Of a stretch of DNA of 64,000 nt, positions 4,105 through 48,712 are shown in pieces. The DNA is taken from assembly GCA_963576785.1 (NCBI GenBank), contig OY756139.1, forward strand, positions 3,658,001 to 3,722,000, given 5' to 3'. Every line of letters begins with the position of its first letter. Positions within the stretch are counted from its first letter, which is position 1. This DNA is from Chlorophyllum brunneum. Its lineage: Eukaryota > Basidiomycota > Agaricomycetes > Agaricales > Agaricaceae. Made by a program: the position numbers and the translations under genes. Under the pieces are notes generated by a model, which was not told where the DNA came from, made no database searches, and saw only the letters and a program-made list of their open reading frames with translations.

Positions 4105-5826
4105 TCAGTGTTTCAGATCTTCTTCTCCTGAGACTTCCCAAATTTGTCGGATCACAGTAATTGTATTGTCCTCAAATAAGTGGTCTGGTAGTAAGATGAT
4201 ATTGGTGTTGTCTTGTATAGTGTCAGTTTTTGTTAATCCCAATAAAACATTGGCTTTTATGTTGGTCTTTCCAGGAATGTGTTTCAGCATATAATGGTAT
4301 TCTTGTAGCTCTATCTGCCACCTCACTTGTTGTCCTGTGAGTTGTTGTGGTTTTGGAAGTATTCCAGGTTTTTGTGATTGGTCCAGATTTCGAGTGGTTC
4401 ATCAGCATTAAGTAGGTATTATCTCCAGGTTTTGATTGCTTCTCAGATGGCTAGTAGTTCTTTGTCATAGATCTGATAGTTTCATTTTGCTGGTGTCATT
4501 GTTCTTGAGTAGAATGCAATTGGGTGCCAGTGTTCTTCCTGTTTCTGTGATAGTACTACCCCTACTCCATATCCTAATGCATCCACTTCTACTCTGTATT
4601 GTCCCTTGTCTTGTGGCATTGCTAGTACTGGCTTGCTTGTGACCTTTTCCTTGATTTTTGCGAAGGCTTGTTGCTGTTGTTCTGTTCATACCCATTGTGT
4701 GTCCTTTTTCTTCAACTCGTGTAATGGGGCTGCTATGTTGCTGAAGTCATGTATGAATTGTCAGTAGAAGTTTGCGAATCCTAGGAATTTCTTAATATCT
4801 TTCAGGGATTTGGGTGTTGGCCATTCTTTCACCACTTTCACCTTCTCCTTCTCTATTTTAATACTGCCTTGTCCAACCACAAATCCTAATATTGGTATCT
4901 CTTTTGTGTCGAACAAGCACTTTGATCTTTTGAAATACAGTTGGTGTTTTGCTGCAATGTCAAAAAATTGTTTCATTCTGTCTTCAAGTTCCTATTGTGT
5001 GGTTCCAGGGAGGACAAAGTCATTGATGTAGTTGATGACTGTTCCTTCATGTAGCATCTCTTGGAAGACCATATTCATCATCCTTTGGAATGTTGTTGGC
5101 AAGTTACTCATTCCAAAAAACATGACTATTGGTTCAAATAGTCCATTGTTTGTTACAAACGCTGCTTTCCATTCATTGCCTTCTCTGATCCGAATGTTGT
5201 TGTATCCCCAAATAATGTCAAGTTTGTTGAAAACTTTTGCATCCTTGAGTCTATCAATAACTTTGCTTATCAATGGAAGTAGTGTTTTGTCCTTAATTGT
5301 GTGTTCATTTAGTTTTTTGTAGTCTTGTACTAGTTGCTTAATTCCATCTTTCTTGGGTATGAAGAAGCATGGGGTTGCATAAGAGGATTGTGATAGCTGA
5401 ATTTGTCCTGAGGTAATATTCTTGTTGAGAAATTTCTGTAGTTCTTTTATTGTTATCAGGTAGACTTTGGACTGTAATACCAGTGGTACACTTTCTGACA
5501 GGTTTATTTTGTGGTCCCATATCATGTGCTTGGGTAGTTTGTTGACATTCTTCTTGTTGAACAGGTGCGTGTATTGTTGTAGGTATGTTGGTAGGTCTTC
5601 TGGGTTGGTTTGGTCCATTTTCTTTTCCTTTATGTGTTCCTTGATTGTGCATATTCTCTCATTGAATTGTATGTCATTGTGGTGTGTGGTGCAATCCTTC
5701 GGACATCTGTTGAAGCATATTATGTTGTTTGTCCAGTTGATTTCCAGGTTGTGTTTGACTAGCCAGTTGTGTCCAAGATATAGGTCTGCACTCTTCAGTT
5801 GTGTTATTCAATTTCTTCCATATGTT
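4105..5826 (-). pseudogene. Gypsy reverse transcriptase and RNase H (element Z)
   Basis: RT sequence runs on the minus strand from about 5618. It includes FFIPKKDG, the FNKLDIIWGYNNIRIREG palm block, FGMSNLPTTFQRMMN, and the catalytic box as YINDF, where X has YMDDF. The first catalytic Asp is therefore replaced by Asn. RT continues at 4976-4761 (ILGFVVGQ, FLGFANFY). An RNase H remnant with RWQIELQEYHYMLKHIPGK lies at 4330-4240. Several frameshifts and stops interrupt it. It reads antisense to X. Confidence 0.85.
5822..5826. repeat. Target-site duplication ATGTT, left of element X
   Basis: Five bases directly before the TG of the X 5' LTR. They are identical to 12146-12150 directly after the X 3' LTR. 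Deleting X plus one copy restores continuous Z sequence collinear with X at about 7672-7695. Confidence 0.95.
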
Positions 5827-6119
5827 TGTTATGAACTATAGATAGACAGTACATTCCTATTATGCACCCGTCACATTTATCATTCCTATGTATCTGTTTC
5901 ATCCCTTATGGCTGTACTCTTACTGACTCAGTCTACTCGTTTCCTATGACTCCCTTACTCTGTTCCTTTATTATTAGCACTCACCACTAGTATATAGAGT
6001 GTAGTAATACTTGATGTATTCCTTACACTTTACCAATCATATCATCCCTTTCTCTTTTCTCTACTTCCTTGTCTTTATCCAAAGACTTGCAACCTGAGTC
6101 CTAGACTAAGGTTGTAACA
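5827..6119 (+). repeat. 5' LTR of X (293 bp)
   Basis: It starts TGTTATGAAC and ends GTTGTAACA, with TGTTA/TAACA inverted termini. The first 116 bases differ from the 5' LTR of Y (42389-42681) at nine positions. The remaining 177 are identical, which marks a conversion or crossover edge at 5942/5943. Confidence 0.95.
5991..6036 (+). promoter_or_regulatory. Putative LTR promoter: TATA box and predicted transcript start
   Basis: TATATA at 5991-5996 is followed about 30 nt later by ACACTTTACCAA (6025-6036). This second block is complementary to the primer-binding segment at 6121-6132, so a transcript starting near 6025 could prime on itself. The same arrangement is kept in all the full LTRs here, with TATATAA in the 3' LTR of X. 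The start site is inferred from spacing and complementarity. Confidence 0.6.
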
Positions 6120-6120
6120 T

Positions 6121-6132
6121 TTGGTAAAGTGT
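6121..6132 (+). promoter_or_regulatory. Primer-binding site complementary to the element's own LTR
   Basis: TTGGTAAAGTGT lies one base after the LTR end, where the minus-strand primer site is expected. It is the perfect 12-nt reverse complement of 6025-6036 in the LTR. The Tf1/sushi group of gypsy elements is known to prime from the folded-back 5' end of its own RNA in this way. I did not recognise complementarity to a tRNA 3' end. Confidence 0.65.
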
Positions 6133-6212
6133 CATTTGACTCACCTTGCAAGAGAGGTGCCACTATTCATAGCTAGGCTTGGAATAATAGCCTCCGACCA
6201 GGACAACAGTAT

Positions 6213-7397
6213 ATGAGCAGCAGTAGCTCATTGAGAACACCAAGAAGACCAAGAGCTCCGAGACCAACAGATATCCAGGGATCACCAGTAACTACCGGAT
6301 CCAAGCGACAAACAGAACCAGAAATCCCTGAAGGCCTTAAATGGTAGAAATCTGACCACAGTATAGAAGAAGATACAGCGCTTTTCAAGACCCTATTCAA
6401 TACAGAAGTTGCTGAGACCACATTCGACATAGAAGTTGCCGAGACCCCATTTGATACAGAAATCGCCAAAACCACATCCGACATAGAAGTTGCCAAGACC
6501 TACGAAAATGAACATAGTGAACCAGAGACAAAATCAGAGATGGCTGATAAAATCAATTTCCCAAAGAATCTAGCCCCAGAACCAGGATATTTCAATGGAG
6601 ATAGAACCAAGTTTGACGATTGGTGGAGAGCAATGTCCTTATGGACACTCTTCAACAAAATCAACAATAACGAGCAAAAGATATTTGGAATATTAGCATG
6701 AATGAAAGGAGGACTTGCAGGTCCCTATGCTAATGCCAAGTTACAAATGATTCAAGATAAGAAAACACCAGCATTCGATGACTTCGCAAAGGAGATGGTA
6801 GCTACCTTCTCCTTGGGAAATAGGAAAGCAATAGCAGAAGGGGAAATTGAGTTGTTCAAACAGGGAAAGAGGAACACCGCGGACTTCTTAATAGAGTTCG
6901 AAGCATTAAAAACCCAAGCAGGGACCGATGACATGCACGCCATATTCCTCCTCAAACAACATACCAGAGCAGACATTATCCAAACCATTGTAGGCTATCC
7001 AGCAGCCTCAATCCCAGATATATACAGCAAATGGAGAAACACCATCCTTGCAGTAGGACAGGGGTACGAAACAACAGACATCACACAAGGAGATGTCAGA
7101 ACAAGCACAGGAGTCACCTATGGAGGTAGAGGACAACCAATGGAAATTGGTAGACAAAGGGCAGACACCGATCAGAATGGCAAACCAAGGTGTTTTAACT
7201 GTAACCTCTATGGGCATATTGCCAAATACTGCTGCAAGAAGACGAAGATAGCATACACCAAAATAACGTGCTATAACTGTGGCAAACAGGGCCACATCTC
7301 AAAGAACTGTAAAGCACCGAAGAAAGCACACATCAGAGAGGTTACCAAGGAGATAGAAGAAGAGACAAAAGAGGATTTTGTCAAAGGCTCCAAGTAG
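6213..7397 (+). pseudogene. Gag polyprotein of element X, two in-frame stops
   Basis: The frame from ATG 6213 covers 394 codons and is interrupted by TAG at 6345 and TGA at 6699; Z has CAG at the first site and TGA at the second. The order is a Ser/Pro-rich N-terminus, an acidic repeat-like stretch (VAETTFDIEVAETPFDTE), a capsid-like region after 6533, then two nucleic-acid-binding zinc knuckles, CFNCNLYGHIAKYC and CYNCGKQGHISKNC, both C-X2-C-X4-H-X4-C. After TGA 6699 an ATG follows at once and opens 231 residues including both knuckles. Gag would form the cytoplasmic particle around the RNA. Confidence 0.9.
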
Positions 7398-10300
7398 GCA
7401 CAAATCCGTGAGCCAATAAACCTAGAGTTTCTGTTTTATGTCACAATAGACGATATGTGATCCCACAAAAACAAAACTCGACATGCAAACTTCTCCTCGA
7501 TTCAATGATTAGAACAAAGAAAGGACCCAAGCAAATCACCACACTGGTGGATTCCGGATGTACGCGCATGTGCATAGCACAGAGGATAGTAGAAGAAGAA
7601 CAGATCACAACCGAGTAATCAATGCTGACGGAACCAAAAACAAGAAGGGGGAAATAACAGACAACTGGTATTAAGCAATGGTAAACACATGGAAGAAATT
7701 GAAGCAATGGTAACACAACTGGAAAGTGTGGACCTATATCTCGGACATGATTGGCTAGTCAAGCACAACCCAGAAATTGACTGGACAAACAACATAGTAT
7801 GCTTCAATAGATGCCCGAACGACTGCACCACACACCACAACGATATATGGTTCAACGAAAGAATATGCACAGTAAAAGAACATATAGAGGAGAAGAAAAC
7901 TGACCAAACAAACCCAGAGGACCTACTGACATACCTGCAGCCATATATGCACCTGTTCAACAAAAAGAACTTTGACAAACTACCAGAACATACTATATGG
8001 GACCACGAAATAAACCTGACAGAAGATGCACCACTGGTATTACAGTCCAAGGTCTATCCAATGACATTAACGGAGAAGCAAGAACTGCAAACATTCCTCG
8101 ACAAAAATATTGCCTCAGGACAAATTCGACCATCACAATCCCCCTATGCTACACCATGCTTCTTCATACCCAAGAAAGATGGAACCAAATGACTCGTACA
8201 AGACTACAAGAAGCTAAATGAACACACGATCAAAGACAAAATGCCACTTCCACTCATAAGTGAAGTTATCAATAAGCTCAAGAACGCGAAAGTCTTTAAC
8301 AAACTCGACATCATATGGGGATACAATAACGTCAGGATAAGAGAAGGTGATGAATGGAAAGCAGCATTCGTAATGAACAATGGACTATTCGAACCAATGG
8401 TCATGTTTTTTGGAATGAGTAACTCGCCAGCAATGTTCCAAAGGATGATGAACACTGTTTTTCGGGAAATGCTACATGAAGGAGCAGTTGTCAACTACAT
8501 GGACGATTTCGTCATACCGGGAACCACACAACAGGAACTTGAAGACAGAACAAAACAATTTCTTGACATTGCAGCGAAGCACCAACTATATTTCAAAAGA
8601 TCGAAATGCCTATTTGATACAAAAGAAATACCTATACTAGGATTTGTGGTTGGACAAGACAGTGTTAAAATGGAGGAGGAGAAAGTGAAAGCAGTGAAAG
8701 AATGGCCCATACCCAAATCCCTAAAAGATGTCGAAAAATTCCTAGGATTTGCAAACTTCTACCGACGATTCATTCACGACTTCAGCAACATAGCAGCCCC
8801 ACTACACGAGTTGAAGAAAAAAGACATGCAATGAGCATGGAAGGAACAACAACAACAAGCCTTTGAAAGGATCAAGGAAAAGATCACAAGCAAACTGGTA
8901 TTAACAATGCCACAGGACAAGGGTCAATATAGGGTAGAAGTGGATGCATCAGGATATGGAGTAGGAGCAGTATTATTGCAAAAACAAGAAGAACACTGGT
9001 GCCCAATTGCATTCCACTTAAGAACGATGACACCCACAGAATGAAACTATCAGATCTACAACAAAGAGTTACTCACCATTCGAGAAGCAATCAAGACCTG
9101 GAGACAATATCTACTCGATGCAGACAAACCATTCAAAATATGGACCAATCACAAAAACCTGGAATATTTCCGAAAACCACAACAACTCACAGGATGACAA
9201 GCGAGGTGGCAGATGGAGTTACAAGAATACCATTACACGTTGAAACATATCCCTGGAAAAACCAACACGAAAGCTGACATCTTGTCAAGACTAACAAAAA
9301 CGGACACTACTCGGGACAACACTGACATCACCCTACTACTTATTCAATGACAGTATGATCACCACAATCTGACAAATTTGGGAAATCTCAGGGGAAGAAG
9401 ATCTGAAACACCAAATATGAAAGGAGACAAGAAGAGAAACACAATGGCTAAAAGAAAAAGAGAAGCGACCAAAGGAGATATGGGAAACAGATGGGGTACC
9501 GATGTTTGAAGGAAGGATATATGTTCCACCCAACAACCAAATACGACAAGAAATACTATGACAACACCACAACAAAACAGATGTAGGACACCCAGAACAA
9601 TATTGAATGATCGAACTCCTTAAACAGAGTTATTGGTGGCCCGACGTCAAACAATACATCTGAGGATGTGAAGCATGCCAACAAAATAAAATACTCCGAA
9701 CAAGACCAACAACACATCTCCATCCATTACCAACACTAGCGGAACCTTGGGAAGAAATATCAATCGACATGATAGGACTGCTACCAGAATCAGAAGGATA
9801 TGACACAATACTTGTCATAGTTGATTGTTTCAGTAAAATGATCAGATTACAGGCAGTCAACACCACCTTAACGTCCGAGGAGCTAGGAGATATCTATCAA
9901 GATGACATATGGAGAACACATGGAATACCCCGAAGAATTATCAGTGACAGAGGCCCACAATTCGTGTCCAGATTCATGGCAGAATTATGCCGAGCAACAG
10001 GAACCCAGCGAAACTTATCCACAGCATACCACCCACAAACCGATGGTCAAACAGAGCACATTAACCAGGAGGTTGAAACATACCTCAGAAATGTAATAAA
10101 ACATGCTCAAGACAATTGGAAAAAATGGCTAGTCACAGTGGAATTCCAATACAACGACAAAACCCACACAGCCACCGGATATTCACCATTCGAAATAGTT
10201 TATGGATGACATCCTTGGAAAGGAGATATAACGGGTATTACCAAAGCACCTGCAATCACAGAACAAATACAGGAGTTACAAAAAATATGATGAGAAGTGA

Positions 10301-10833
10301 CAAAGATGTTACAACATAGTCAGGAACAAATGGAGAAACACAACAGCATTAAGCTGGAACATGAGTACACCCCAGGAGAACAAGTTTGGCTCGAAGCAAG
10401 TAATATCAGGACAACGAGACCAACCAAAAAGCTGGATCACAAATGATATGGACCATTCAGGATAAAAACAAAAATAGGCAAAACAAGCTACCAATTGGAA
10501 CTACCTGAAACATGGGCAATACACAATGTATTTAACAGCAGACTCCTCTCCCTCTATCAAAAACCCAAGTTTGACAGCCAGCGCACCCCACTACCACCAA
10601 TGCCCAAGATCATCAACAATGAAGAGCAATATAAGGTAGATGAAATCCGAGGACATCGCAAAAGAGGACGATGAAATCAATTCCTGGTATACTGGAAAGG
10701 ATATACCTCCGAAGAAGACACATGGGAGAATGAGTCAGAGTTAGGAAATGCTAAGGAGGCAGCTCAAGAATTTTTAGACAAGATTTTGAGGATGAAACCT
10801 ATAAAAAGGGGGGATAAAAAGCAACAATTATGA
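7398..10833 (+). pseudogene. Pol of element X: protease, RT, RNase H, integrase, chromodomain
   Basis: The protease shows LVDSGCTRMCIA near 7550 and is then broken by two deletions. RT (about 7900-8830) has FFIPKKDG, FGMSNSPAMFQRMMN and an intact YMDD box. RNase H has VEVDASGYGVGAVL and the TNHKNLEYFRKPQQLTG block. Integrase has an HH-CC knuckle (GCEACQQNK), the DDE residues in SIDMIG, ISDRGPQF and NQEVETYLRN, and a GPY/F module. The chromodomain has FLVYWKGYTSEEDTWE. At least ten TGA codons interrupt it, including 8190, 8832, 9042, 9195, 9370, 10207 and 10672. Most fall where Z or the family has Arg. The final stop TGA (10831-10833) overlaps an ATG. Confidence 0.92.
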
Positions 10834-10930
10834 ACAACAAACCCTGTGTCACAAGAGATCATTACACTCAACGCACCTCACGCTGTATCCATTGCACCAT
10901 AAACTTTGCCAATTACCTTCATAACACACC

Positions 10931-11809
10931 ATGCACACTGAACGCAAGCCCACTCCCTTCCCAGCCAATGATGAAGAATTCAAACAAGAACTTAACAACC
11001 TCCTCAATACTCAGTCCACTGAAGATCAAATCGAGCACTATACTGCCACAACCAAAGGACTCACATACATTGCACATGCCATCAACAACCTCCAAATCCA
11101 AGCCAAAGCCCTGAGCCACATTCTACTCATCACCACTACTAGAGCCCTTCCCACTGCCATGTCAACCAGGAAACATGAACTCATGAAGGAGTTATTAGAC
11201 AAAGCAGCCACCAACCTCAATGTACTAGTGCACTCTAATGCAAAGAAATGCATCCAAAGTGCCTTAATCATGACAGGCAAAAGACTCAATCACCTCACTG
11301 ACTCGAGTAACAATCCCACCTACAAACTTGCATGGAGACTAATGAATTTCGACTCATACACCCCCACTACCTTACCCGACAAGCTGCCCTACCACAAAGA
11401 CAATAAACAGGACTGGTTAGATGAAGGAATGGAGGGAATCAACAAGTCTGTTCCAGACCATCTAATGGAACCAGACATGCAAGACGAAGTAGACCACCTC
11501 CTTATACAACTGCCTGATATGGATCCGCCACCCAAACCAATGATATTTAATCCGCCCCCATCCTATCTTACACTCAAAGATGGAGGACAGTTCAGAGAAA
11601 ACTACTGGGAGGAGATAATACACAACCTCGTTGCAGCCAAAACAAACGATACTGCTATGTTCAAAGGATGCACCATAGCCCTCTTCAGAGGAGGCCAAGA
11701 CCATGCCCCCTTTTGGATTGGATGTCGATGCAAATCAGGAACCCCAATGATTGGTCCTACCAAACGTCAACTTGTCAACGCCTTACACAAAGAACAAGAC
11801 GACAAGTAA
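10931..11809 (+). CDS. Gypsy ORF3 of X, 292-aa protein of unknown function
   Basis: This is an uninterrupted 292-codon frame between the pol chromodomain and the polypurine tract, in an element whose gag and pol are full of stops. I do not recognise the family. The sequence is hydrophilic, with no signal peptide or membrane segment, so it does not look like an envelope protein. The N-terminal half appears helical (KELLDKAATNLNVLVHSNAK). The middle is Pro-rich (PDMDPPPKPMIFNPPPSYL). The C-terminal part has Cys/Gly motifs (FKGCTIALFRGG, WIGCRCKSGTPM). Z and Y carry the same ORF. In Y it is open except for one TGA. It may be an accessory structural protein or captured host sequence. Confidence 0.7.
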   Translation: MHTERKPTPFPANDEEFKQELNNLLNTQSTEDQIEHYTATTKGLTYIAHAINNLQIQAKALSHILLITTTRALPTAMSTRKHELMKELLDKAATNLNVLVHSNAKKCIQSALIMTGKRLNHLTDSSNNPTYKLAWRLMNFDSYTPTTLPDKLPYHKDNKQDWLDEGMEGINKSVPDHLMEPDMQDEVDHLLIQLPDMDPPPKPMIFNPPPSYLTLKDGGQFRENYWEEIIHNLVAAKTNDTAMFKGCTIALFRGGQDHAPFWIGCRCKSGTPMIGPTKRQLVNALHKEQDDK

Positions 11810-11838
11810 ACTACGGTATTTCATGGGGTCATGAAAGT

Positions 11839-11849
11839 AAAAAGGGAGG
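11839..11849 (+). promoter_or_regulatory. Polypurine tract of X
   Basis: A purine run AAAAAGGGAGG lies three bases before the TG of the 3' LTR, the expected plus-strand primer of a gypsy element. A second purine-rich run near 10803-10820, at the end of pol, could serve as a central tract, but I have no further support for that. Confidence 0.75.
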
Positions 11850-11852
11850 TAT

Positions 11853-12145
11853 TGTTATGAACTATAGATAGACAGTACATTCCTATCATGTGCCCATCAC
11901 ATTTATCATTCCTACGTATCTGTTTCATCCCTTATGGCTGTACTCTTACTGACTCAGTCTACTCATTTCCTATGACTCCTTTACTCTGATCCTTTATTCT
12001 TAGCTCGTACCACTAGTATATAAAGTGTAGTAATACTTGATGTATTCCTTACACTTTACCAATCATATCATCCCTTACTCTCTTCTCTACTTCCTTGTCT
12101 TTATCCAAAGACTTGCAACCTGAGTCCTAGACTAAGGTCGTAACA
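11853..12145 (+). repeat. 3' LTR of X (293 bp)
   Basis: It starts TGTTATGAAC and ends GTCGTAACA. It keeps the TATATAA box and the ACACTTTACCAA block. It differs from the 5' LTR of the same element at 16 positions by my count and is of the same subtype as the 3' LTR of Y. Confidence 0.95.
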
Positions 12146-12150
12146 ATGTT
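12146..12150. repeat. Target-site duplication ATGTT, right of element X
   Basis: Identical to 5822-5826. The following base continues Z in the minus orientation. Confidence 0.95.
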
Positions 12151-12462
12151 GACCATTGCTTAATACCAGTTGTGCCATGTCTGTTATTTCTCCCTTCTTG
12201 TTTTTGGTTCCATTGGCATTAATTACTCATATTGGAGTTTCAAGGGGTCTAGTTGTGATTCATTCTTCTTCTACTATTTTCTGTGCTATGCACATATGGG
12301 TGCATCCAGAGTCTACCAGTGTGGTGATTCATTTAGGTCCTTGTGTTGTTCTGATTGTTGAATTGAGAAGTTTGCATATCAAGTTTCTTTTCTGTGGAAT
12401 CATATATTGTCTATTGTGAAGTAAAACAGAGACTCTAGGTTTATTGGCTGGTGGGTTTGTGC

Positions 12463-13611
12463 CTACTCAGAGCCTTTGGCAAAATCCTCCTTTGTCTCTT
12501 CTTCTTGCTCAGTTTCCTTGGTAACCTCTCTAATGTGTGCTTTCTTTGGTACTTTGCAATTCTTCAAGATGTGGCCTTGCTTGCCACAATTATAGCACAT
12601 TATTTTGGTGTATGTGACCTTCATCTTCTTGTGGCAATATTTGGCAATATGTCCATATAGGTTGCAGTTGAAACATCTTGGTTTGCTATTCTGATTGGTG
12701 TCTGCCCTCTGTCTACCAATCTCCATTGGTTGTCCTCCACCTCCATATGTGACTCCTGTGCTTGTCCTGATGTCTCCTTGGGTGATGTCTGCTGTTTCAT
12801 ATTCTTGTCCTACTGCAAGGATTGTGTTCCTGCATTTGCTATATGTGTCTGGGATTGAGGCTGACAGATAGCCTACTATGGTTCAAATGATATCTGCTCT
12901 AGTGTGTCATTTGAGGAGGAATATGACATGTCTGTCATCTGTTCCTGCTTGGGTTTTCAATACTTCGAACTCTATTAAGAAGTCCATGGTGTTCCTCTTT
13001 CTCTGTTTGAACAACTCGATTTCTTCTTCTACTATAGCTTTTCTATTCCCCAAGGAGAAGGTAGCTACCATCTCCTTTGCAAAGTCATCAAATCTGGCAT
13101 TTTCTTGTCTTGAATCATTTGTAACTTGGCATTGGCATAAGGACCTGCCAGTCCTCCTTTTATTCATACTAATACTCTGATTATCTTTTGTTTATTATCA
13201 TTGATCTTGTTGAAGAGTGTCCATAAGGACATTGCTCTCCTTGGTTCTATCTCTATTGAGGTATCCTGGTTTTGGGGCTAGGTTCTTTGGGAAGTTGATT
13301 TTATTGGCCATTTCTGATTCTGTCTCTGGTTCACTATATTTGTTCTCATGTGTCCTGGCAATTTCTATATTGGATAGTACTTTGGCAACTTCTATGTTGG
13401 ATGTGGCTTCGGTGATTTCTGTGTCAAATAGGGTCTCAAAAAGAGCTGTGTCTTCATCTATGCTGTGATCAGATTTCTGCCACTTAAGACCTTCAGGGAT
13501 TTCTGGTTCTGTTTGTTGTTTGGATCTGGTGGTTACTGGTGATCCTTGGATGTCTGTTGGTCTTGGAGCTCTCGGTCTTCTTAGTGTTCTTGATGAGCTA
13601 CTGCTACTCAT
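12463..13611 (-). pseudogene. Gag of element Z
   Basis: The minus-strand frame begins MSSSSSSRTLRRPRAPRPTD at 13611 and stays open for 137 residues. It resumes at 13167 and ends with two CCHC knuckles (CFNCNLYGHIAKYC, CYNCGKQGHILKNC) at 12726-12463. The TGA at 13164-13166 lies at the same codon as TGA 6699 in X, while X's TAG 6345 is CAG here. Further decay is mainly loss of CpG. Confidence 0.85.
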
Positions 13612-13704
13612 ATACTGTTGTCCTGGTTGGAGGCTATTATTCCAAGCCTAGCTACAAATAGTGACACCTCTCTTGCAAGGTGAGTCAAATGACACTTTAC
13701 CAAA

Positions 13705-14009
13705 TGTTACAACCTTAGTCTAGGACTCAGGTTGCAAGTCTTTGGATAAAGACAGGGAAGTAGAGAAAAGATAAAGGGATGATATGATTGGTAAAGTGTA
13801 AGGAATACATCAAGTATTACTACACTCTATATACTAGTGGTGAGTGCTAATAATAAAGGAACAGAGTAAGGGAGTCATAGGGGATGAGTAGAATGAGTCA
13901 GTAAGAGTACAGCCATAAGGGATGAAACAAGGAATGAAACAGATACATAGGAATGATGAGTATGATGGGCATATGATAGGAATGTACTGTCTATCTATGG
14001 TTCATAACA
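13705..14009 (-). repeat. 5' LTR of Z (about 305 bp)
   Basis: On the plus strand it runs from TGTTACAACC to CATAACA. It is longer than the X LTRs because of a short internal duplication around the GGGATGAAACA block. Its internal subtype (CCCTTACTCTG, TATATAGAG) matches the 5' LTRs of X and Y rather than their 3' LTRs. Confidence 0.9.
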
Positions 14010-14061
14010 GTCACACTCAGTATCACTATAGGTAGGGTGACAGGGCTGAAGGGAACCTATG

Positions 14062-14310
14062 CTCACTCACCTTCCTTTTATCCATGAAATCTGCATTTTT
14101 GTTCTCAACAACAAAATTGAAGATCAGACATTAAAGCAGTTCATGAATGTATTCTGGTTTTTGCTGATTTGTGTCCTGAGCCCAGTGGTAGTCTGGGGTG
14201 ATTGCCCTTGCTATTTCCCTGAACAGTGTCCCAAGTTATCTATATCCAGAATATAAAACCTGTATGCAATGTAAAAACATAGTGAGAAGCAACTGGGGTT
14301 GGCAGGACAT
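14062..14310 (-). pseudogene. Small fragment of a FunK1 kinase gene
   Basis: The minus-strand sequence matches part of exon 5 of the intact kinase (about 18177-18420), including the stretch translated there as YVHELLQRLILNFVIENKDADF. Nearly every CpG of the intact gene is TpG or CpA here. It is too short to encode a product and abuts the Z LTR, so it is probably the remains of a third kinase paralogue. Confidence 0.75.
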
Positions 14311-16016: not shown

Positions 16017-16439
16017 TCACAAGCAATGACAGCACACTTAACTTGCCAGCCCCTTATCTTTGTTCCACTGACCAGCTCCTCAGATCCTCACCATATGACA
16101 GCAGGTTTAATGGCTGCAAAAGCTGTAGTAATACCCAATAACAATAAGATTATTGTAGAAGTTACAAAATGTCAGGTAAAGGCTGCAACTACTAGAGATG
16201 CAAATTCTACAAGTCTTGACTGTGAAGTTTGGGAAAAACCTTGGAAGCAAAGTGACTACCTCTCTGGTATATGTTCTTTATATTCTTTTTGGAGTAATTT
16301 CTCATATATAGTATTATTGGCAGAGGTACTTGATGATGCATTAGGAATGGTGAACCCTAACTGGTCAAAGGTGTATGGTATGTTGCTTGCAATGTGAGTC
16401 TATATTGACTTTCATCATTCATATCTCACTTACAAATAT

Positions 16440-17735: not shown

Positions 17736-17785
17736 TGGTACATCCTGTACATATTTAAAGATGTACGAGGCAGACAGACATTTGA

Positions 17786-36016: not shown

Positions 36017-36066
36017 TGGTACATCCTGTACATATTTAAAGATGTACGAGGCAGACAGACATTTGA

Positions 36067-38646
36067 CTATATCCGTATTATTACTCCGTACGAGCTTTCT
36101 TCGTCTAGCAAGAAGTGCGTGAGGTCATAGATGGATGTGATAGGTTGCAGAATACGTACCGGGTGACCCTCCCCATCGTCCTTCTCCTGCTCTTCCTCAT
36201 CATCATGCTTATCATCCTCCCCCGCCTCTTCATTATAATTCTCATCATCCTGATTCTCGTCATTGTCGGCTCCTTGATCCTCCTTGTCCTCTTCCCTATT
36301 GGTGTACTCGGACGGCGGCGCGGAGCCGACTTCAGGAGCTTTCCGCTTCGTGCCCTGGCTGGATCGCGACGAACGGAATGTTGCACTACGACGAGATTCA
36401 CTCTCGGATGGTGATAAGAAAGTGGCACTGGGTCCAGACTTGACAGACCTATGCTTGCTCGCTTTCTCCTTGTCCATAAAATCCGCATCTTTATTTTCGA
36501 TAACAAAATTGAGGATCAGACGTTGAAGGAGTTCATGAACGTATTCCGATTTTTGCCGATTGGAGTTTTGAGCCCAGTGGTAGTCCGGGGTGATCCCGTC
36601 TGCCATTTCTCTGAACAGTTCCCTAAGGGCTCCATATCCAGAATGTAAAACTTTTTGGCGACGTGAAAACGTAGTGAGAAGCGACTCCCGCGAATCCTGC
36701 GTTGGCAAACCCTGTCGAGGTCCATCATAGTTGGGAAGTAATAACTCCCAGTGTGCACGTATGATAGGCTCTTTTGGCGCACCCTCTGGCGCAGCTTGGA
36801 TACCCCAGCAGAAACAAGTCCAGAGGGCAGATTCTGCGTCGTGACGGAGTTCATGTCGCCACGTAGTTGTAGAGGGAGGAGCATTCTTCCGCGCAGACTC
36901 ATCTTCATACGGGCCATCAAACTCCTTCATACGTTGCGGGTGAATTGAACAGTAGGCATCACGGATGCCATCAGTGAGCTTTGGCAAGGGGGTAAAAGGT
37001 AATCTAGAAGGCGGTAATGGTTCTCCCGCCTGAACAGCCCGGGCAATGAACATCGGTGTGCCCTACTTACGTTTTTAGCGCGACATTATGATAAAGTAAG
37101 ATGAGGCCTACCGTACGCCCGTCCCCGGAAGGGTGGGGGTGGTCGAGCATTTTACTATAACCAAAGTCGATAAGAAGGATCGAAGTCTTGTGTTTCGGTT
37201 CGCTACGCGCAGCTGAAGTCAACTGCATGTCGTGAAATCTGTTACGACATACTCATTATTGAGCAAATGCTCAATGAAGACGGGAGATGCTGTTGCGGAG
37301 GTCTGTATCTCGTTTCCCGGAAATTCAGGACGGATCACGACGTTCCATGGGCTAATGTCACGGTGAAGAATGTTGAGATCAGTGTAGAGACCCCGAGTGA
37401 CTATAGAAAACGTGAGAATAGGTATCGATCCATAACTAAACCCTGACCCTCTAAAAGATCGTATATCGCATAAAGAAGCTTTCGCGGGGTATCCAAACCC
37501 ATAAATTCGGTACCGTAATCTTGTTGGGGAATACGGGTCTTGACGCGATTGCCGCAGAGCGTCCCTTGAACCTCGGAACAGAACAGGGCTCTGACCACGC
37601 CAGGATATGGTCCACCTGAGTGTATCTTTGCAAGTATTTCCCCCTCGGTCAATCGACGCGCAAGCCTGGCGTACTGGTCTTTAATTACGAGCTCAACCAC
37701 GACCGTGCCGGGGGGACTGTACACAAAGATATTGGACCGACGACCAAAGGGATCACTCGAGTAATGAAGACGACACGCCCGGTATTGCGTTCCGGCCACA
37801 TCTACATCGAAGGCAATGTGTTCCGCGGGGCCTTTGTTGCTCAGTGTCCTCGATAAGGTTTTATCACGATTGGCGCCTTGGCCATCGTTAAGGTACTTCA
37901 CAACAGCGGTTAGCAGTGGGACATAATCCTCCTGCTTCGAAAGCTCGAGCTTCCTGATCTCGTACGCATTGCATACGAGGAAGACGAGGTCATTATCGTT
38001 GACGAGAAGGCCAAGTGCTGAAATGAGGTCCGGTCGAGCCTCGAGGAGGTATGCGGCGTAGGTAATAGCTTGGTCAATGCGCTGCTGGCGGGTGCGGCCA
38101 GCGGAGCGGTATTCGATCGCCATTTCAACGGAACCCCAATGAAACTTCCCATTAGCTTCAACTAGGGGGAAATTTTTGTGGCAAGCCACGATATCTGGCC
38201 TGGAGAGCGTGGTGGTAGGGTGGTCGGCTAAGGAATTGTTACCACGGGCATGGAACTCAATATCTACAGCACAGTAAGAATAAATTCACCTTTCACATCG
38301 GTCAACAGAGATGTGACGTACCTTTCACCTCGAACTCGTCCAAGATACCGTTCACGACACTCATAAACGCCGTCACTGATCCAAACGCTGCAGGCTTCTT
38401 TGTTGTCTGCTCTTCGTCTTTCTTCTCCGTCCTTGGTTTTTGGCCTTCTGATTGCCCGTCCGTTTCCCCTTGCTTGTGCAAAGACGTTGGCGGCTCACTT
38501 CCAATAAGGCGATAGAATGCATCGAGCGCGATACTGCGAATGGGAGGTAGATTAGCAGCAACCGTTTCGCGATCGTGCCATGGATACATTGCCGCAAGTG
38601 TGTCAACAGGTGAGCTTTCAGCAGGTGCAGTAGCGTTTGTAGACAT
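36067..38646 (-). CDS. Second intact FunK1-type protein kinase (5 exons, 791 aa)
   Basis: Exons on the minus strand are 38646-38322, 38263-37448, 37400-37253, 37202-37112 and 37062-36067, with the same motifs and intron phases as the first copy. The one difference I noticed, G to A at 36445, is a CpG transition and is synonymous in the kinase frame (Ser). The locus therefore has two functional-looking copies predicted to give the same protein. Its 5' flank, including the region upstream of the start, is duplicated with it, so regulation should be the same. Confidence 0.9.
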
Positions 38647-39066
38647 CGTGGCCACAGGCGACAACAGCAATTCAGTGCAGAACATATACTGGCACTGCAC
38701 GTGACGGACTAGCATCACATGATCGATGTTACTATACACAGCCTGAAAAATACACACTGCTCTCCGCCCCCACGATCATAATCAACAAAAGATTAAAGAG
38801 ACAATTAAAAATGAAATTTATTGCAGCCGGTATTTCAACGAAAATGAACAATTGAACTAGCAAACAACTGTATGTAAGGAAAATGTAAGACCAGAGCGCC
38901 AGCACATAAATACTGTATTCGAGAACCATGATACAGATGTCGGCCTCGTGCAGGTACCCCTACTCCTCATTGATCTCCTCACATGATATTACAGGCCAAC
39001 TAATACAGTGGCACATTACAGTGAGATACTGGTGCAAAACAAACAGAGAATACAGGTTGAATCACC

Positions 39067-40391
39067 CTATGCTTGCTCGCTTTCTCCTTGTCCATGAAAT
39101 CCGCATCTTTATTCTCGATAACAAAATTGAGGATCAGATGTTGAAGCAGTTCATGAACATATTCTGGTTTTTGCTGATTGATGTCCTGTGCCCAGTGGTA
39201 GTCCATGATTATTGCTTCTGCCATCTCTCCAAACAGTTCCCCAAGGGCTCTATACTCTAAATGTAAAACTTTGTCATGAGATGAAAACCTGGTGAGAAGC
39301 AACCCCTGCAAATCCTGCATTGGCAAACCCTGTCAAGGTCCATCATAGTTGGGAAGTAATGACTCCCAGTCTGCACATATAATAGGCCCTTTTGGTGTAC
39401 CCTCTAGTGCAGCTTGGATACCCTAGCAGAAGCAAGTCCAGATGGCAGATTCTGCATCATGACAAAGATCATGTTGCCATGTAGTTGTAGTGGGAGGAAC
39501 TTTCTTCTGCACAAACACATCCTCATATAGGCCATCAAACTCCTTCATACATTGTGGGTAAATTGAACAATACATATCACAGATGTCATCAGTGAGTTCT
39601 GGTAATGCAATGAAAGCTATGCTGGGAGGCAGCAGTGGTTTCCCTGCCTGAACAGCATGGGCAATAAAGATTGGTGTGCCCTATTGATACCTTAGCCTCA
39701 AACACCTATGACGTCAGATGGAACTTACAACAAATTCACTTCCAGGAGGATCAGAAGAACCAGGGAGTTTGCTACAACCAGAGTCAATAAGGAGGATGGA
39801 AGACCTGTGTTTGGGTTTCCTACATCCAACCATAAGCAATCACGACTTGTGAAATGAGTTGTAACATACCGAGTATCAAGAAAATGCTCAATAAAGACAG
39901 AGGTTGTTGACAAGAGCATCTTACTGTGATCCTCCAGCAATTCAGGTTGGATTAGGATGTTCCATGGATTAATATCACAGTGAAGGATTTGGTGATCAAC
40001 ATATAGAGCTCAAGTGACTATGGAAACTGTAAGGAATCATAGCAAGAATAGAACAGCTTACTCTCTAAGAGATTATATATCATATGAAGAACCTTTCAGG
40101 GAGTATCCAAAGCCATGAAATTGGCCCTATAATCTTGTAGGACACAGAGCTTGATACGGTTATCACCTTTGACCTCTCTGGGGAAAGCTGCCCCCACAGC
40201 GCCAAGATGAGGCTTGGTTGAATGTGTCATGTCGAAGATTTGCTTTTTACTGGATGGACACATGGTTCTGGCATACTGGTCTTTGATTATGAGCTGAGAC
40301 ACGATATTTCTTGTGGGTTTGTAGAAACAGAACATTAGATTGGCGACCAAAAGAATTGCTTGATCATGAGTACTGCACTAGACATGCCTTC
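39067..40391 (-). pseudogene. Second copy of FunK1 pseudogene B
   Basis: Duplicate of 20786-22110; no difference noticed. Confidence 0.84.
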
Positions 40392-40682
40392 CGGACATGC
40401 CTTTCCAGGGATAGTCAGATTTGTGATTGCTTGAGCATGTTCTTGCCCCAGCAATTACTAAGATATGGGCAAGAAGTCACAGAAGTATTTCTATGATTGG
40501 ATTGATATTTGTACATGTGCTTTACTCTTTTAAGCTCTGTCTGTAGTAATTACTTGGGTATATGGTATTGTAGGATATGAAAACAATACTAATATCCCTG
40601 GGTCATCTCAATCATCCCACTATCCAACCTAAATCCTGTCCAAAGATTCCAACAATTTACCTCATCCTTTATGGCAGCTCTA

Positions 40683-42131
40683 TCAAAGTTGGGAATTAGA
40701 ACACATATTCAGGTCCACGGCTCCCTTCAATTGTTGAAGATACTGATAGTACTGACCAAAGTACAAATTTTGCCCTAGTGCCAGAGTTAGTCTACAATGC
40801 TTTTGTCCACATAGTATGACTTACAGTTATTCAATCTAGTGTCAAGGTAGGCATTATCCAGGGGATTAATAAGAAGATACTTAACTGGAGTATTGGTTGC
40901 TCACCTATAACTCCAGCCGGTTGGGTTATTGTTCATAATACTGTTGACTATCCCTAAAAAGATACAGTTGGCTCCTTTTGTCTCGACAATGCATAACAGG
41001 CCTGACTCACCATTGAGGAGAGAAAATCCAGATTATAGGAACGGATCACCAGTATTATCCACATAAGTATAAAACTGGATCAAGAACAGTGCATTCCTGT
41101 TCCCAAATGACGTGTTGTCTTGGGCACAGCATTAACTATAATCCAGGTCCTCCTAGCTCTTCAACTTCAACAAACCAGTCCTATACATGGAGGTCAGTGA
41201 TTATTCCTAAAAGTCAAGTTGTATTTACATACTGCTTGAGACAAGAAGCCCTGATTTGCTAGATATGCCATAAAAGCTTGTTGACTCTCTGGCATCATTG
41301 GCTGGCTCTCCGGTATCATAATTGACTTGACATAAAATGTATTGGATCTGTTGGGAATGCCAGTTATGTTAAGCCTGCCATTGTTTCCATCTAAGTACGT
41401 AATGCTATTGATATAACTTCCAGGCTTTATAGTCTGACTCTGTGGTTTCTGACCAATTATCTGCAAGAGCGGATTGATGGCATTGTTAAATTGATTTGCA
41501 GAATTGTACCAGCCACCTTGGAGGGTGATACCAATGCAACCTTTTCTGCTACCTTTGAATAGAATTAATTCCAAACTGAACTCAACTGGAACCTGGCCAA
41601 GCAAGAATTCTTGGTATACATTAAGGAGGAAGAAAGCTGCTGCTGCGGTCAAATCCCAATTGTATTCGAACACGGTGATGGATGAAGGTACGGAATATGT
41701 TTTGAATGTGATTGAGGTGGTGATTCCAAATGAAGGACCCGCACCCCACAGTTTCTCTCAGTTGAGTCTTATCAGAGGATGTGGATTCTAATACTCATCC
41801 AAAACAGTTCCAAATTCTGATCCCTCGAAGCTGTAGCAATTGTTCCATTGGCGAGTACAACATTCATTGATTCAATTGCATCCAACGACATACCTCATGA
41901 CCTCGACGAGAATGCAAATCCCCCAAAGGCTGAATACCCACTGATACCAATGTACAGACACATTCTATGCCTGAAGCCTCACCCATAGGAATTGAGTACC
42001 AGAGCAATATCACTGAGTCAATTCCCAGATTCAACATGGGCCTCGAGATGAATCGGAGGGTTTAGTTTAGGGAACTTATCATTGAACCCTGTCAACTCAT
42101 CTTAATCCAACATGCATCCCCCATTCAAGAA
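40683..42131 (-). pseudogene. Second copy of the FAD-linked oxidase pseudogene
   Basis: Duplicate of 22402-23850 with the same stops and the same Tyr at the usual FAD-attachment His. Its longest open piece is 41194-41673. Confidence 0.79.
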
Positions 42132-42383
42132 CCATTACTCATCATACTCAATGGACTGGACAAATGTAAAAGCAAGGTAGGACAGTGTGAGTTCATTGAA
42201 CTCATCAGCAACCACGTTTGATCTGTTCCCAAATTCCCTCTACAATCATTTGATTTGTCAGTGATGCCAGTACTGGTGACCCATGCAGTCAGTTGCAAAT
42301 CTGTATCTGATTCATAGGAGGTTTTGGTCTACCAGGAGTCATGAGTTGTAGATAGGCTAATTTGACTGGTCCTGTAAAGTATG

Positions 42384-42388
42384 GTCTT
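42384..42388. repeat. Target-site duplication GTCTT, left of element Y
   Basis: Matches 48708-48712 on the other side of Y. Confidence 0.95.
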
Positions 42389-42774
42389 TGTTATGAACTA
42401 TAAATAGACAGTACATTCCTATCATGTGCCCATCACATTTATCATTCCTATGTATCTGTTTCATCCCTTATGGCTGTACTCTTACTGACTCATTCTACTC
42501 ATCCCCTATGACTCCCTTACTCTGTTCCTTTATTATTAGCACTCACCACTAGTATATAGAGTGTAGTAATACTTGATGTATTCCTTACACTTTACCAATC
42601 ATATCATCCCTTTCTCTTTTCTCTACTTCCTTGTCTTTATCCAAAGACTTGCAACCTGAGTCCTAGACTAAGGTTGTAACATTTGGTAAAGTGTCATTTG
42701 ACTCACCTTGCAAGAGAGGTGCCACTATTCATAGCTAGGCTTGGAATAATAGCCTCCGACCAGGACAACAGTAT

Positions 42775-43959
42775 ATGAGCAGCAGTAGCTCATTGAGAAC
42801 ACCAAGAAGACCAAGAGCTCCGAGACCAACAGATATCCAGGGATCACCAGTAACTACCAGATCCAAGCGACAAACAGAACCAGAAATCCCTGAAGGCCTT
42901 AAATGGTAGAAATCTGACCACAGTATAGAAGAAGATACAGCGCTTTTCAAGACCCTATTCAATACAGAAGTTGCTGAGACCACATTCGACATAGAAGTTG
43001 CCGAGACCCCATTTGATACAGAAATCGCCAAAACCACATCCGACATAGAAGTTGCCAAGACCTACGAAAATGAACATAGTGAACCAGAGACAAAATCAGA
43101 GATGGCTGATAAAATCAATTTCCCAAAGAATCTAGCCCCAGAACCAGGATATTTCAATGGAGATAGAACCAAGTTTGACGATTGGTGGAGAGCAATGTCC
43201 TTATGGACACTCTTCAACAAAATCAACAATAACGAGCAAAAGATATTTGGAATATTAGCATGAATGAAAGGAGGACTTGCAGGTCCCTATGCTAATGCCA
43301 AGTTACAAATGATTCAAGATAAGAAAACACCAGCATTCGATGACTTCGCAAAGGAGATGGTAGCTACCTTCTCCTTGGGAAATAGGAAAGCAATAGCAGA
43401 AGGGGAAATTGAGTTGTTCAAACAGGGAAAGAGGAACACCGCGGACTTCTTAATAGAGTTCGAAGCATTAAAAACCCAAGCAGGGACCGATGACATGCAC
43501 GCCATATTCCTCCTCAAACAACATACCAGAGCAGACATTATCCAAACCATTGTAGGCTATCCAGCAGCCTCAATCCCAGATATATACAGCAAATGGAGAA
43601 ACACCATCCTTGCAGTAGGACAGGGGTACGAAACAACAGACATCACACAAGGAGATGTCAGAACAAGCACAGGAGTCACCTATGGAGGTGGAGGACAACC
43701 AATGGAAATTGGTAGACAAAGGGCAGACACCGATCAGAATGGCAAACCAAGGTGTTTTAACTGTAACCTCTATGGGCATATTGCCAAATACTGCTGCAAG
43801 AAGACGAAGATAGCATACACCAAAATAACGTGCTATAACTGTGGCAAACAGGGCCACATCTCAAAGAACTGTAAAGCACCGAAGAAAGCACACATCAGAG
43901 AGGTTACCAAGGAGATAGAAGAAGAGACAAAAGAGGATTTTGTCAAAGGCTCCAAGTAG
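42775..43959 (+). pseudogene. Gag of element Y
   Basis: Same two stops (TAG 42907, TGA 43261) and zinc knuckles as in the other copies. It carries the Y-type residues seen in the chimeric copy. Confidence 0.88.
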
Positions 43960-46900
43960 GCACAAATCCGTGAGCCAATAAACCTAGAGTTTCTGTTTTA
44001 TGTCACAATAGACGATATGTGATCCCACAAAAACAAAACTCGACATGCAAACTTCTCCTCGATTCAATGATTAGAACAAAGAAAGGACCCAAGCAAATCA
44101 CCACACTGGTGGATTCCGGATGTACGCGCATGTGCATAGCACAGAGGATAGTAGAAGAAGAACAGATCACAACCGAGTAATCAATGCTGACGGAACCAAA
44201 AACAAGAAGGGGGAAATAACAGACAACTGGTATTAAGCAATGGTAAACACATGGAAGAAATTGAAGCAATGGTAACACAACTGGAAAGTGTGGACCTATA
44301 TCTCGGACATGATTGGCTAGTCAAGCACAACCCAGAAATTGACTGGACAAACAACATAGTATGCTTCAATAGATGCCCGAACGACTGCACCACACACCAC
44401 AACGATATATGGTTCAACGAAAGAATATGCACAGTAAAAGAACATATAGAGGAGAAGAAAACTGACCAAACAAACCCAGAGGACCTACTGACATACCTGC
44501 AGCCATATATGCACCTGTTCAACAAAAAGAACTTTGACAAACTACCAGAACATACTATATGGGACCACGAAATAAACCTGACAGAAGATGCACCACTGGT
44601 ATTACAGTCCAAGGTCTATCCAATGACATTAACGGAGAAGCAAGAACTGCAAACATTCCTCGACAAAAATATTGCCTCAGGACAAATTCGACCATCACAA
44701 TCCCCCTATGCTACACCATGCTTCTTCATACCCAAGAAAGATGGAACCAAATGACTCGTACAAGACTACAAGAAGCTAAATGAACACACGATCAAAGACA
44801 AAATGCCACTTCCACTCATAAGTGAAGTTATCAATAAGCTCAAGAACGCGAAAGTCTTTAACAAACTCGACATCATATGGGGATACAATAACGTCAGGAT
44901 AAGAGAAGGTGATGAATGGAAAGCAGCATTCGTAATGAACAATGGACTATTCGAACCAATGGTCATGTTTTTTGGAATGAGTAACTCGCCAGCAATGTTC
45001 CAAAGGATGATGAACACTGTTTTTCGGGAAATGCTACATGAAGGAGCAGTTGTCAACTACATGGACGATTTCGTCATACCGGGAACCACACAACAGGAAC
45101 TTGAAGACAGAACAAAACAATTTCTTGACATTGCAGCGAAGCACCAACTATATTTCAAAAGATCGAAATGCCTATTTGATACAAAAGAAATACCTATACT
45201 AGGATTTGTGGTTGGACAAGACAGTGTTAAAATGGAGGAGGAGAAAGTGAAAGCAGTGAAAGAATGGCCCATACCCAAATCCCTAAAAGATGTCGAAAAA
45301 TTCCTAGGATTTGCAAACTTCTACCGACGATTCATTCACGACTTCAGCAACATAGCAGCCCCACTACACGAGTTGAAGAAAAAAGACATGCAATGAGCAT
45401 GGAAGGAACAACAACAACAAGCCTTTGAAAGGATCAAGGAAAAGATCACAAGCAAACTGGTATTAACAATGCCACAGGACAAGGGTCAATATAGGGTAGA
45501 AGTGGATGCATCAGGATATGGAGTAGGAGCAGTATTATTGCAAAAACAAGAAGAACACTGGTGCCCAATTGCATTCCACTTAAGAACGATGACACCCACA
45601 GAATGAAACTATCAGATCTACAACAAAGAGTTACTCACCATTCGAGAAGCAATCAAGACCTGGAGACAATATCTACTCGATGCAGACAAACCATTCAAAA
45701 TATGGACCAATCACAAAAACCTGGAATATTTCCGAAAACCACAACAACTCACAGGATGACAAGCGAGGTGGCAGATGGAGTTACAAGAATACCATTACAC
45801 GTTGAAACATATCCCTGGAAAAACCAACACGAAAGCTGACGTCTTGTCAAGACTAACAAAAACGGACACTACTCGGGACAACACTGACATCACCCTACTA
45901 CTTATTCAATGACAGTATGATCACCACAATCTGACAAATTTGGGAAATCTCAGGGGAAGAAGATCTGAAACACCAAATATGAAAGGAGACAAGAAGAGAA
46001 ACACAATGGCTAAAAGAAAAAGAGAAGCGACCAAAGGAGATATGGGAAACAGATGGGGTACCGATGTTTGAAGGAAGGATATATGTTCCACCCAACAACC
46101 AAATACGACAAGAAATACTATGACAACACCACAACAAAACAGATGTAGGACACCCAGAACAATATTGAATGATCGAACTCCTTAAACAGAGTTATTGGTG
46201 GCCCGACGTCAAACAATACATCTGAGGATGTGAAGCATGCCAACAAAATAAAATACTCCGAACAAGACCAACAACACATCTCCATCCATTACCAACACTA
46301 GCGGAACCTTGGGAAGAAATATCAATCGACATGATAGGACTGCTACCAGAATCAGAAGGATATGACACAATACTTGTCATAGTTGATTGTTTCAGTAAAA
46401 TGATCAGATTACAGGCAGTCAACACCACCTTAACGTCCGAGGAGCTAGGAGATATCTATCAAGATGACATATGGAGAACACATGGAATACCCCGAAGAAT
46501 TATCAGTGACAGAGGCCCACAATTCGTGTCCAGATTCATGGCAGAATTATGCCGAGCAACAGGAACCCAGCGAAACTTATCCACAGCATACCACCCACAA
46601 ACCGATGGTCAAACAGAGCACATTAACCAGGAGGTTGAAACATACCTCAGAAATGTAATAAAACATGCTCAAGACAATTGGAAAAAATGGCTAGTCACAG
46701 TGGAATTCCAATACAACGACAAAACCCACACAGCCACCGGATATTCACCATTCGAAATAGTTTATGGATGACATCCTTGGAAAGGAGATATAACGGGTAT
46801 TACCAAAGCACCTGCAATCACAGAACAAATACAGGAGTTACAAAAAATATGATGAGAAGTGACAAAGATGTTACAACATAGTCAGGAACAAATGGAGAAA

Positions 46901-47395
46901 CACAACAGCATTAAGCTGGAACATGAGTACACCCCAGGAGAACAAGTTTGGCTCGAAGCAAGTAATATCAGGACAACGAGACCAACCAAAAAGCTGGATC
47001 ACAAATGATATGGACCATTCAGGATAAAAACAAAAATAGGCAAAACAAGCTACCAATTGGAACTACCTGAAACATGGGCAATACACAATGTATTTAACAG
47101 CAGACTCCTCTCCCTCTATCAAAAACCCAAGTTTGACAGCCAGCGCACCCCACTACCACCAATGCCCAAGATCATCAACAATGAAGAGCAATATAAGGTA
47201 GATGAAATCCGAGGACATCGCAAAAGAGGACGATGAAATCAATTCCTGGTATACTGGAAAGGATATACCTCCGAAGAAGACACATGGGAGAATGAGTCAG
47301 AGTTAGGAAATGCTAAGGAGGCAGCTCAAGAATTTTTAGACAAGATTTTGAGGATGAAACCTATAAAAAGGGGGGATAAAAAGCAACAATTATGA
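43960..47395 (+). pseudogene. Pol of element Y
   Basis: Protease remnant, RT with YMDD, RNase H, integrase and chromodomain, with the same TGA codons and protease deletions as X. Two independent insertions sharing this many private defects points to conversion between them, or to a shared defective parent mobilised in trans. Confidence 0.9.
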
Positions 47396-47492
47396 ACAAC
47401 AAACCCTGTGTCACAAGAGATCATTACACTCAACGCACCTCACGCTGTATCCATTGCACCATAAACTTTGCCAATTACCTTCATAACACACC

Positions 47493-48371
47493 ATGCACAC
47501 TGAACGCAAGCCCACTCCCTTCCCAGCCAATGATGAAGAATTCAAACAAGAACTTAACAACCTCCTCAATACTCAGTCCACTGAAGATCAAATCGAGCAC
47601 TATACTGCCACAACCAAAGGACTCACATACATTGCACATGCCATCAACAACCTCCAAATCCAAGCCAAAGCCCTGAGCCACATTCTACTCATCACCACTA
47701 CTAGAGCCCTTCCCACTGCCATGTCAACCAGGAAACATGAACTCATGAAGGAGTTATTAGACAAAGCAGCCACCAACCTCAATGTACTAGTGCACTCTAA
47801 TGCAAAGAAATGCATCCAAAGTGCCTTAATCATGACAGGCAAAAGACTCAATCACCTCACTGACTCGAGCAACAATCCCACCTACAGACTTGCATGGAGA
47901 CTAATGGATCTCAACTCATACACCCCCACTACCTTACCCAACAAGCTGCCCTACCACAAAGATGATGAACAGGACTGGTTAGATAAAGGAATGGAGGGAA
48001 TTGACAAATCTGTCCCAGACCATCTAATGGAACCAGACATGTGAGATGAAGTACACCACCTCCTTATACAACTGCCTGATAGGGACCCGCCACCCAAACC
48101 AATGATATTTAATCCACCCCCATCTTATCTTACACTCAAAGATGGAGGACAGTTCGAAGAAAACTACTGGGAGGAGATAATACACAACCTCGTCGCAGCC
48201 AAAACAAACGATACTGCTATGTTCAAAGGATGCACCATAGCCCTCTTCAGAGGAGGACAAGATCATGCCCCCTTTTGGATTGGATGTCGATGCAAATCAG
48301 GAACCCCGATGATTGGTCCTACCAAATGTCAACTTGTCAACGCCTTACACAAAGAACAAGACAACAAATAG
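47493..48371 (+). pseudogene. ORF3 of element Y, one premature stop
   Basis: The frame is the same length as in X (879 nt) but has TGA at 48042-48044 where X has CAA. Both can come from an ancestral CGA by deamination of opposite strands. The rest differs from X by scattered, often conservative changes (FDS/LNS, DNKQ/DDEQ). This fits a protein that was under constraint until recently. Confidence 0.7.
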
Positions 48372-48707
48372 ACTACGGTATTTCATGGGGTCATGAAAGT
48401 AAAAAGGGAGGTATTGTTATGAACTATAGATAGACAGTACATTCCTATCATGTGCCCGTCACATTTATCATTCCTATGTATCTGTTTCATCCCTTATGGC
48501 TGTACTCTTACTGACTCATTCTACTTGTCCCCTATGACTCCTTTACTCTGCTCCTTTATTCTTAGCTCATACCACTAGTATATAAAGTGTAGTAATACTT
48601 GATGTATTTCTTACACTTTACCAATCGTATCATCCCTTACTCTCTTCTCTACTTCCTAGTCTTTATCCAAAGACTTGCAACCTGAGTCTCAGACTAAGGT
48701 CATAACA

Positions 48708-48712
48708 GTCTT
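48708..48712. repeat. Target-site duplication GTCTT, right of element Y
   Basis: Matches 42384-42388. Confidence 0.95.

Follow-up and report, generated by a model that had tools for sequence, protein, structure and literature searches.

The 64,000-nucleotide stretch of Chlorophyllum brunneum DNA analysed here (the window) corresponds to positions 3,658,001–3,722,000 of the 4.71-Mb contig 1 (OY756139.1) in an assembly of 38.9 Mb and 14 contigs, and it contains a tandem array of protein kinase sequences bordered by copies of a gypsy-type retrotransposon (Table 1). Fungal kinase, gypsy-type, copia-type and LINE-type (long interspersed nuclear element) domains were found along the window, a content that fits a fungus, with element classes that we assume from their domain associations. 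Self-comparison returned a gap-free match of 24,602 bp at 99.74% identity between 5825–30426 and 24106–48707, and showed three copies of the element in direct orientation, each of 6,319 bp, at a period of exactly 18,281 bp. Matches to PF00098 (gag zinc knuckle), PF00078 (reverse transcriptase, RT) and PF00665 (integrase) lie in 6702–7397, 8193–8834 and 9664–10209, respectively. The 293-bp long terminal repeats (LTRs), the 5-bp target duplication, the zinc knuckle and an RT upstream of the integrase, which is the gypsy domain order, place the element in the gypsy (Ty3) type. The outer insertions are called X (copy 1) and Y (copy 3).

Table 1. Features of the array and its surroundings, in window coordinates.
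Feature	Position	Strand	Basis or remark
3' part of older reversed gypsy-type element Z, insertion target of X	2237–5821	-	82.9% to the element's 3' part; integrase and RT in minus-strand open reading frames (ORFs)
Left target duplication of X, ATGTT	5822–5826		
Copy 1 = insertion X, 6,319 bp with 293-bp LTRs	5827–12145	+	Self-comparison, domains
Core of X, nearly identical to that of Y (homogenised tract)	5943–11307	+	
Right target duplication of X, ATGTT	12146–12150		
Spacer, unit 1	12151–24102		Member of multicopy kinase repeat
5' part of Z, resuming from 5821	12151–14009	-	12252–14009 matches the reversed 5' part of the element at 85%
FunK1-like fungal protein kinase, unit 1 (position approximate, exons tentative)	17789–20427	-	Weak PF17667 matches, homologues, motifs, pN/pS
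Left target of copy 2, GTCTT (as in Y)	24103–24107		
Copy 2 = hybrid element, left Y-type, right X-type	24108–30426	+	Self-comparison
Interval holding the Y-to-X switch	27561–29588	+	All three copies identical
Right target of copy 2, ATGTT (as in X)	30427–30431		
Spacer, unit 2	30432–42383		
Second copy of Z 5' part, without Z 3' part on its left	30432–32290	-	Self-comparison
FunK1-like kinase, unit 2	36070–38708	-	One synonymous change in last ORF
Left target duplication of Y, GTCTT	42384–42388		
Copy 3 = insertion Y, 6,319 bp	42389–48707	+	
Right target duplication of Y, GTCTT	48708–48712		

Both outer elements are bordered by matching target duplications, ATGTT around copy 1 and GTCTT around copy 3, and the element at the junction of the two units carries one of each, GTCTT on its left and ATGTT on its right. 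Its sequence, too, combines those of the outer two, changing from one to the other only once. Sixty columns vary across the three copies: at 12 of them copy 2 agrees with copy 3, at 47 it agrees with copy 1, and the remaining one (11947 in copy 1, 30228 in copy 2) is private to copy 2. All the copy-3-like columns lie on the left (in copy-1 coordinates, 5841, 5861, 5865, 5866, 5870, 5931, 5939, 5941, 5942, 6297, 7128 and 9279) and all the copy-1-like columns on the right, from 11308 to 12140 in the same coordinates. The 59 informative columns form a single switch, which a random order of 12 and 47 columns would give with p ~2e-12. The size, spacing and flanking 5-mers of the copies had been claimed in an earlier sequence-only reading and are borne out here, as is its placing of the exchange between 27560 and 29589, with which every informative column agrees. 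The copy-3 bases that it reported at 24578, 25409 and 27560 were found again, joined by nine further agreeing sites in the 5' LTR that it had not listed; the private column was also absent from it. Support for the switch is stronger than that reading had stated.

X lies within the older element Z, and the two parts of Z are unevenly distributed along the array, the 3' part being found only to the left of copy 1 and the 5' part after both copy 1 and copy 2. Elsewhere in the genome, the empty site of X is uninterrupted in the paralogous segment L031 and at 13 further loci, and that of Y at four loci. Empty sites are thus seen in relatives for both outer insertions but not for the junction copy, as no sequence joining the two flanks of copy 2 was found among the loci examined for empty sites, which do not amount to a whole-genome scan.

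Judging from the differences between their own LTRs, X (16 of 293 positions, 5.5%; Kimura two-parameter distance, K80, 0.057) and Y (20 of 293, 6.8%; K80 0.072) are old insertions. The differences between X and Y are arranged in blocks (9 in 116 bp, 3 in 5,365 bp and 47 in 838 bp), with 56 of 954 positions differing at the ends (5.9%) versus 3 of 5,365 in the core, which is 99.94% identical (Fisher p ~5e-43). The sequence-only reading had noted neither this blocked pattern nor the presence of spacer relatives elsewhere in the genome. In comparison with 12 other copies of the element examined in the genome, the X–Y core showed 89.8–92.4% identity, and the near-identical core appears to be private to X and Y among them; a search for the nearest relatives of the different parts of X and Y within the same 12 copies gave values of 0.89 to 0.96 throughout and was uninformative. 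X was also considered as the donor of the core, since over the 177 bp of the 5' LTR that fall within the core the shared sequence differs from the X 3' LTR at 10 positions and from the Y 3' LTR at 16, but the 116-bp edge control was non-discriminating (X 5' with 6 differences to X 3' and 7 to Y 3'; Y 5' with 4 to Y 3' and 5 to X 3'), and no claim is made.

The duplication is recent, as the two units differ at only 3 of 18,281 positions (30228, 35947 and 36445). Two of these (17666/35947 and 18164/36445) are the only differing bases between the spacers, compared as 12146–24107 and 30427–42388, and both are CpG-type transitions at which the unit-1 base is present in 10 of 10 paralogues. At the element site, 30228, the base of copies 1 and 3 is shared by 11 of the 12 other copies, and the twelfth has a third base. 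The bases carried by these paralogues and other copies place all three changes in the second unit. The divergence of the core (3/5,365) is not statistically different from that of the units (3/18,281; p 0.13), and homogenisation and duplication may have been close in time.

We propose that X, nested in the reversed Z, and Y were old same-family insertions in direct orientation that flanked a kinase segment, with about 12 kb between them. An ectopic exchange, by gene conversion or by a single cycle of crossover expansion and contraction, would have homogenised the 5.4-kb core of both elements, and Y on one chromatid would have paired with X on another, so that a crossover in the identical core would give as product X, spacer, Y/X hybrid, spacer and Y. 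The hybrid flanks, the single switch, the empty sites and the relative divergences are shown by the sequence, whereas the chromatids involved, a crossover in place of break-induced replication or circle reinsertion, and the placing of homogenisation before the crossover are inferred. Homologous exchange between X and Y, whatever its route, is very probably the origin of the array, supported as it is by the target duplications, the single switch in 59 columns, the split Z, and the finding of empty sites for X and Y but not for copy 2. The sequence-only reading had also derived the array from recombination between a left X and a right Y, and this stands with two qualifications, one regarding the core identity, which calls for an extra exchange, and the other regarding the intactness of the kinase.

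Several points weigh against this explanation. A single crossover involves only the inner Y and the inner X and leaves copies 1 and 3 unchanged; therefore, the 99.94% identity of their cores is not explained by it, and another homogenising exchange is required, which may have been a gene conversion or a past expansion that was later contracted. The alleles at the three core differences, 6297, 7128 and 9279, are mixed among the other copies (7 to 3, 7 to 3 and 7 to 5), and since both alleles are present there, these differences have no clear polarity, and homogenisation may have preceded the crossover or followed it. In addition, the joint falls within a stretch that is identical in the three copies (27561–29588), inside cores of X and Y that are 99.94% alike, where a misjoin would give the same mismatched flanks. 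Finally, all three unit-specific changes are placed in the second unit, which chance would produce one time in four and a local consensus problem could produce as well. The last two points would fit an assembly artefact, in which the true locus has a single spacer and the assembler either returned from Y to X or merged two haplotypes within the near-identical core. However, a loop walked twice is expected to give identical spacers, and the two CpG-type transitions between the spacers, together with the one private difference in copy 2, were seen instead. Moreover, the next-best match to the spacer in the assembly, among the best candidates, is 95% identical, which gives no sign of a second haplotype, and a 4.7-Mb contig in a 14-contig assembly would suggest reads longer than 5.4 kb. 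We consider such an artefact improbable.

The exchange between X and Y might have followed a homologous route other than unequal crossover, such as break-induced replication, re-replication followed by single-strand annealing, or the release of the spacer as a circle by X–Y recombination and its later reinsertion. The same product would be expected from the circle, break-induced replication and annealing routes, and passages of PMC3536649 describe how re-replication in yeast leads to Ty-bounded head-to-tail duplications with hybrid junctions. There is no sequence evidence against these routes, which are indistinguishable here from unequal crossover; the latter is preferred only as the simplest, and we hold one of the former to be rather unlikely, if well within reach. 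By contrast, three independent insertions, or a tandem duplication by end joining into which the gypsy copies were inserted afterwards, found nothing in their favour, and later insertions would neither hit the same base at an 18,281-bp period nor share the ordered 47 and 12 variants with their neighbours, which leaves this origin hardly conceivable.

The mechanism, retrotransposon-mediated non-allelic homologous recombination, is already known, and the array has little bearing on it; we judge the window to be a clear new instance. It is an unusually readable one, as an old insertion, the homogenisation of a core and a recent duplication appear legible at one locus. Although gene duplication is often ascribed to misaligned recombination of retrotransposons, to our knowledge few natural examples preserve in legible form both parents, the hybrid, the target duplications and the empty sites. 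In passages of PMC3669608, the duplication of mouse Abp genes is explained by recombination between L1Md_T elements, and there, too, three retrotransposon copies flank two gene blocks and the middle copy matches a different neighbour on each side of the breakpoint. The mouse element is an L1 and the evidence in those passages consists of divergent sites and a repeated 50-bp sequence, whereas here an LTR element is involved, and mismatched target duplications and empty-site relatives are available in addition. The yeast duplications bounded by Ty elements, as presented in parts of PMC3536649, share with the array the head-to-tail arrangement, the LTR retrotransposon borders and the hybrid junction element, but they were experimentally induced by re-replication, whereas the array is a natural state for which several routes could account. 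According to sections of PMC7251063, unequal recombination is recognised as a source of intact LTR elements that lack matching target duplications, and gene conversion among LTR elements is also treated in them; that work deals with plants and with the removal of elements, whereas in the window a gain product is found alongside both parents in place. Regarding fungi, non-allelic homologous recombination from repeat to repeat has been proposed for segmental duplications of Colletotrichum higginsianum, where the repeats are subtelomeric and the passages of PMC5576322 concerned show no base-level hybrid such as that found here. In Erysiphe necator, a passage of PMC4298948 places a duplication boundary at a Gypsy fragment and reports that no substrate for homologous recombination was found.

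The duplicated gene belongs to a kinase family present in many copies, the main exon of which seems to be under selective constraint. The spacer is not single-copy in the genome: 13900–23500 matches at least 18 other segments with main pieces 88–95% identical, a lower bound obtained after joining neighbouring pieces, since the best 20 of 485 first-look candidates were scored. Contig 1 has 12 of these 18 segments, all within 3.3–4.7 Mb, and contigs 3, 9 and 13 have two each. In each unit, the FunK1-like kinase has a degenerate kinase copy, interrupted by in-frame stops, on either side. Two ORFs of the FunK1-like kinase, each scanned apart, scored 17.0 and 17.4 bits against PF17667, for which the curated cut-off is 24.1, and 7 of 16 homologues (40–54% identical) carry this domain; because of the sub-cut-off score and these seven homologues, the gene is filed as FunK1-like only. 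It holds HRDISPWN and IDFG, which we take to be kinase motifs, and its splice sites were inspected by eye for what is an approximate gene model. The only kinase difference between the units is synonymous.

Constraint on the kinase was estimated from segments L011–L020 (10 of the 18), each paired with unit 1 and, hence, not mutually independent, as the ratio of nonsynonymous (pN) to synonymous (pS) differences per site. For the main exon, the pooled pN/pS was 0.21; none of the 10 paralogues had an indel there and one had a new stop. Indels occurred in 9 of 10 paralogues both in the degenerate kinase copy next to it (pN/pS 0.49) and in the C-terminal ORF (0.47), where 3 of 10 also had new stops; exon C (0.44) was free of indels. 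From these values, the main kinase exon looks maintained and the C-terminal part does not. The sequence-only reading had spoken of an intact kinase gene, a claim supported in part, by a main catalytic exon that is open and looks constrained in the 10 paralogues, but not by the C-terminal ORF, and the flanking kinase copies are degenerate. Averaged over the paralogues, identity is highest in the main exon, where the best 500-bp bin reaches 0.978, with 0.89–0.91 in the degenerate neighbours and 0.93–0.95 further left (3 to 7 copies aligned). The main exon (19163–19980) is also 94–99% identical to unit 1 in L011–L020, with a pS of 0.06 versus 0.16 in the degenerate neighbours, and this similarity could reflect selection combined with gene conversion from one dispersed kinase gene to another. 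A genome-wide search with PF17667 produced 107 exon-level matches. Most of them fall on contigs 3, 4, 5, 8 and 12, whereas contig 1 has none, and the kinase repeats of the window have therefore diverged beyond what the profile detects. Of 14 control genomes, 4 also gave matches, two of them above the cut-off.

Both ends were available for 9 of the 12 other gypsy copies examined, and seven of these have matching 5-mers. Copy L006 (contig 9, 1085780–1092040) is flanked by TCACT and TTGCT, two transitions apart, so either its target duplication has mutated or it is another recombinant. L007, a full-length copy of the same family (contig 1, 3835495–3841822; ends L007:1385 and 7712), has ATTTC and TCCAT at its flanks. 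Its left flank matches at least 39 other places, including the inside of Z, and its right flank at least 39 others, inside kinase repeats and including both window units at 96%, which makes L007 a candidate second hybrid beside a kinase unit; a partner with swapped flanks was not recognised in two flank searches, the only ones made. On a tentative and rather doubtful view, the repeat-rich last 1.4 Mb of contig 1 could act as an engine of kinase copy number, in which same-family gypsy copies would recombine repeatedly, homogenise their cores, and expand, contract or move kinase segments. If so, the window would be a fresh expansion with previously homogenised parents and L007 a second scar beside another kinase unit.

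The part of contig 1 that holds the 12 kinase segments (~3.3–4.7 Mb) also contains gypsy-, copia- and LINE-type elements surrounding the window. Finally, direct and inverted repeats of ~400–560 bp, with 80–83% identity, are found at 52839–54682, beside a LINE-like RT/endonuclease region (54–64 kb).
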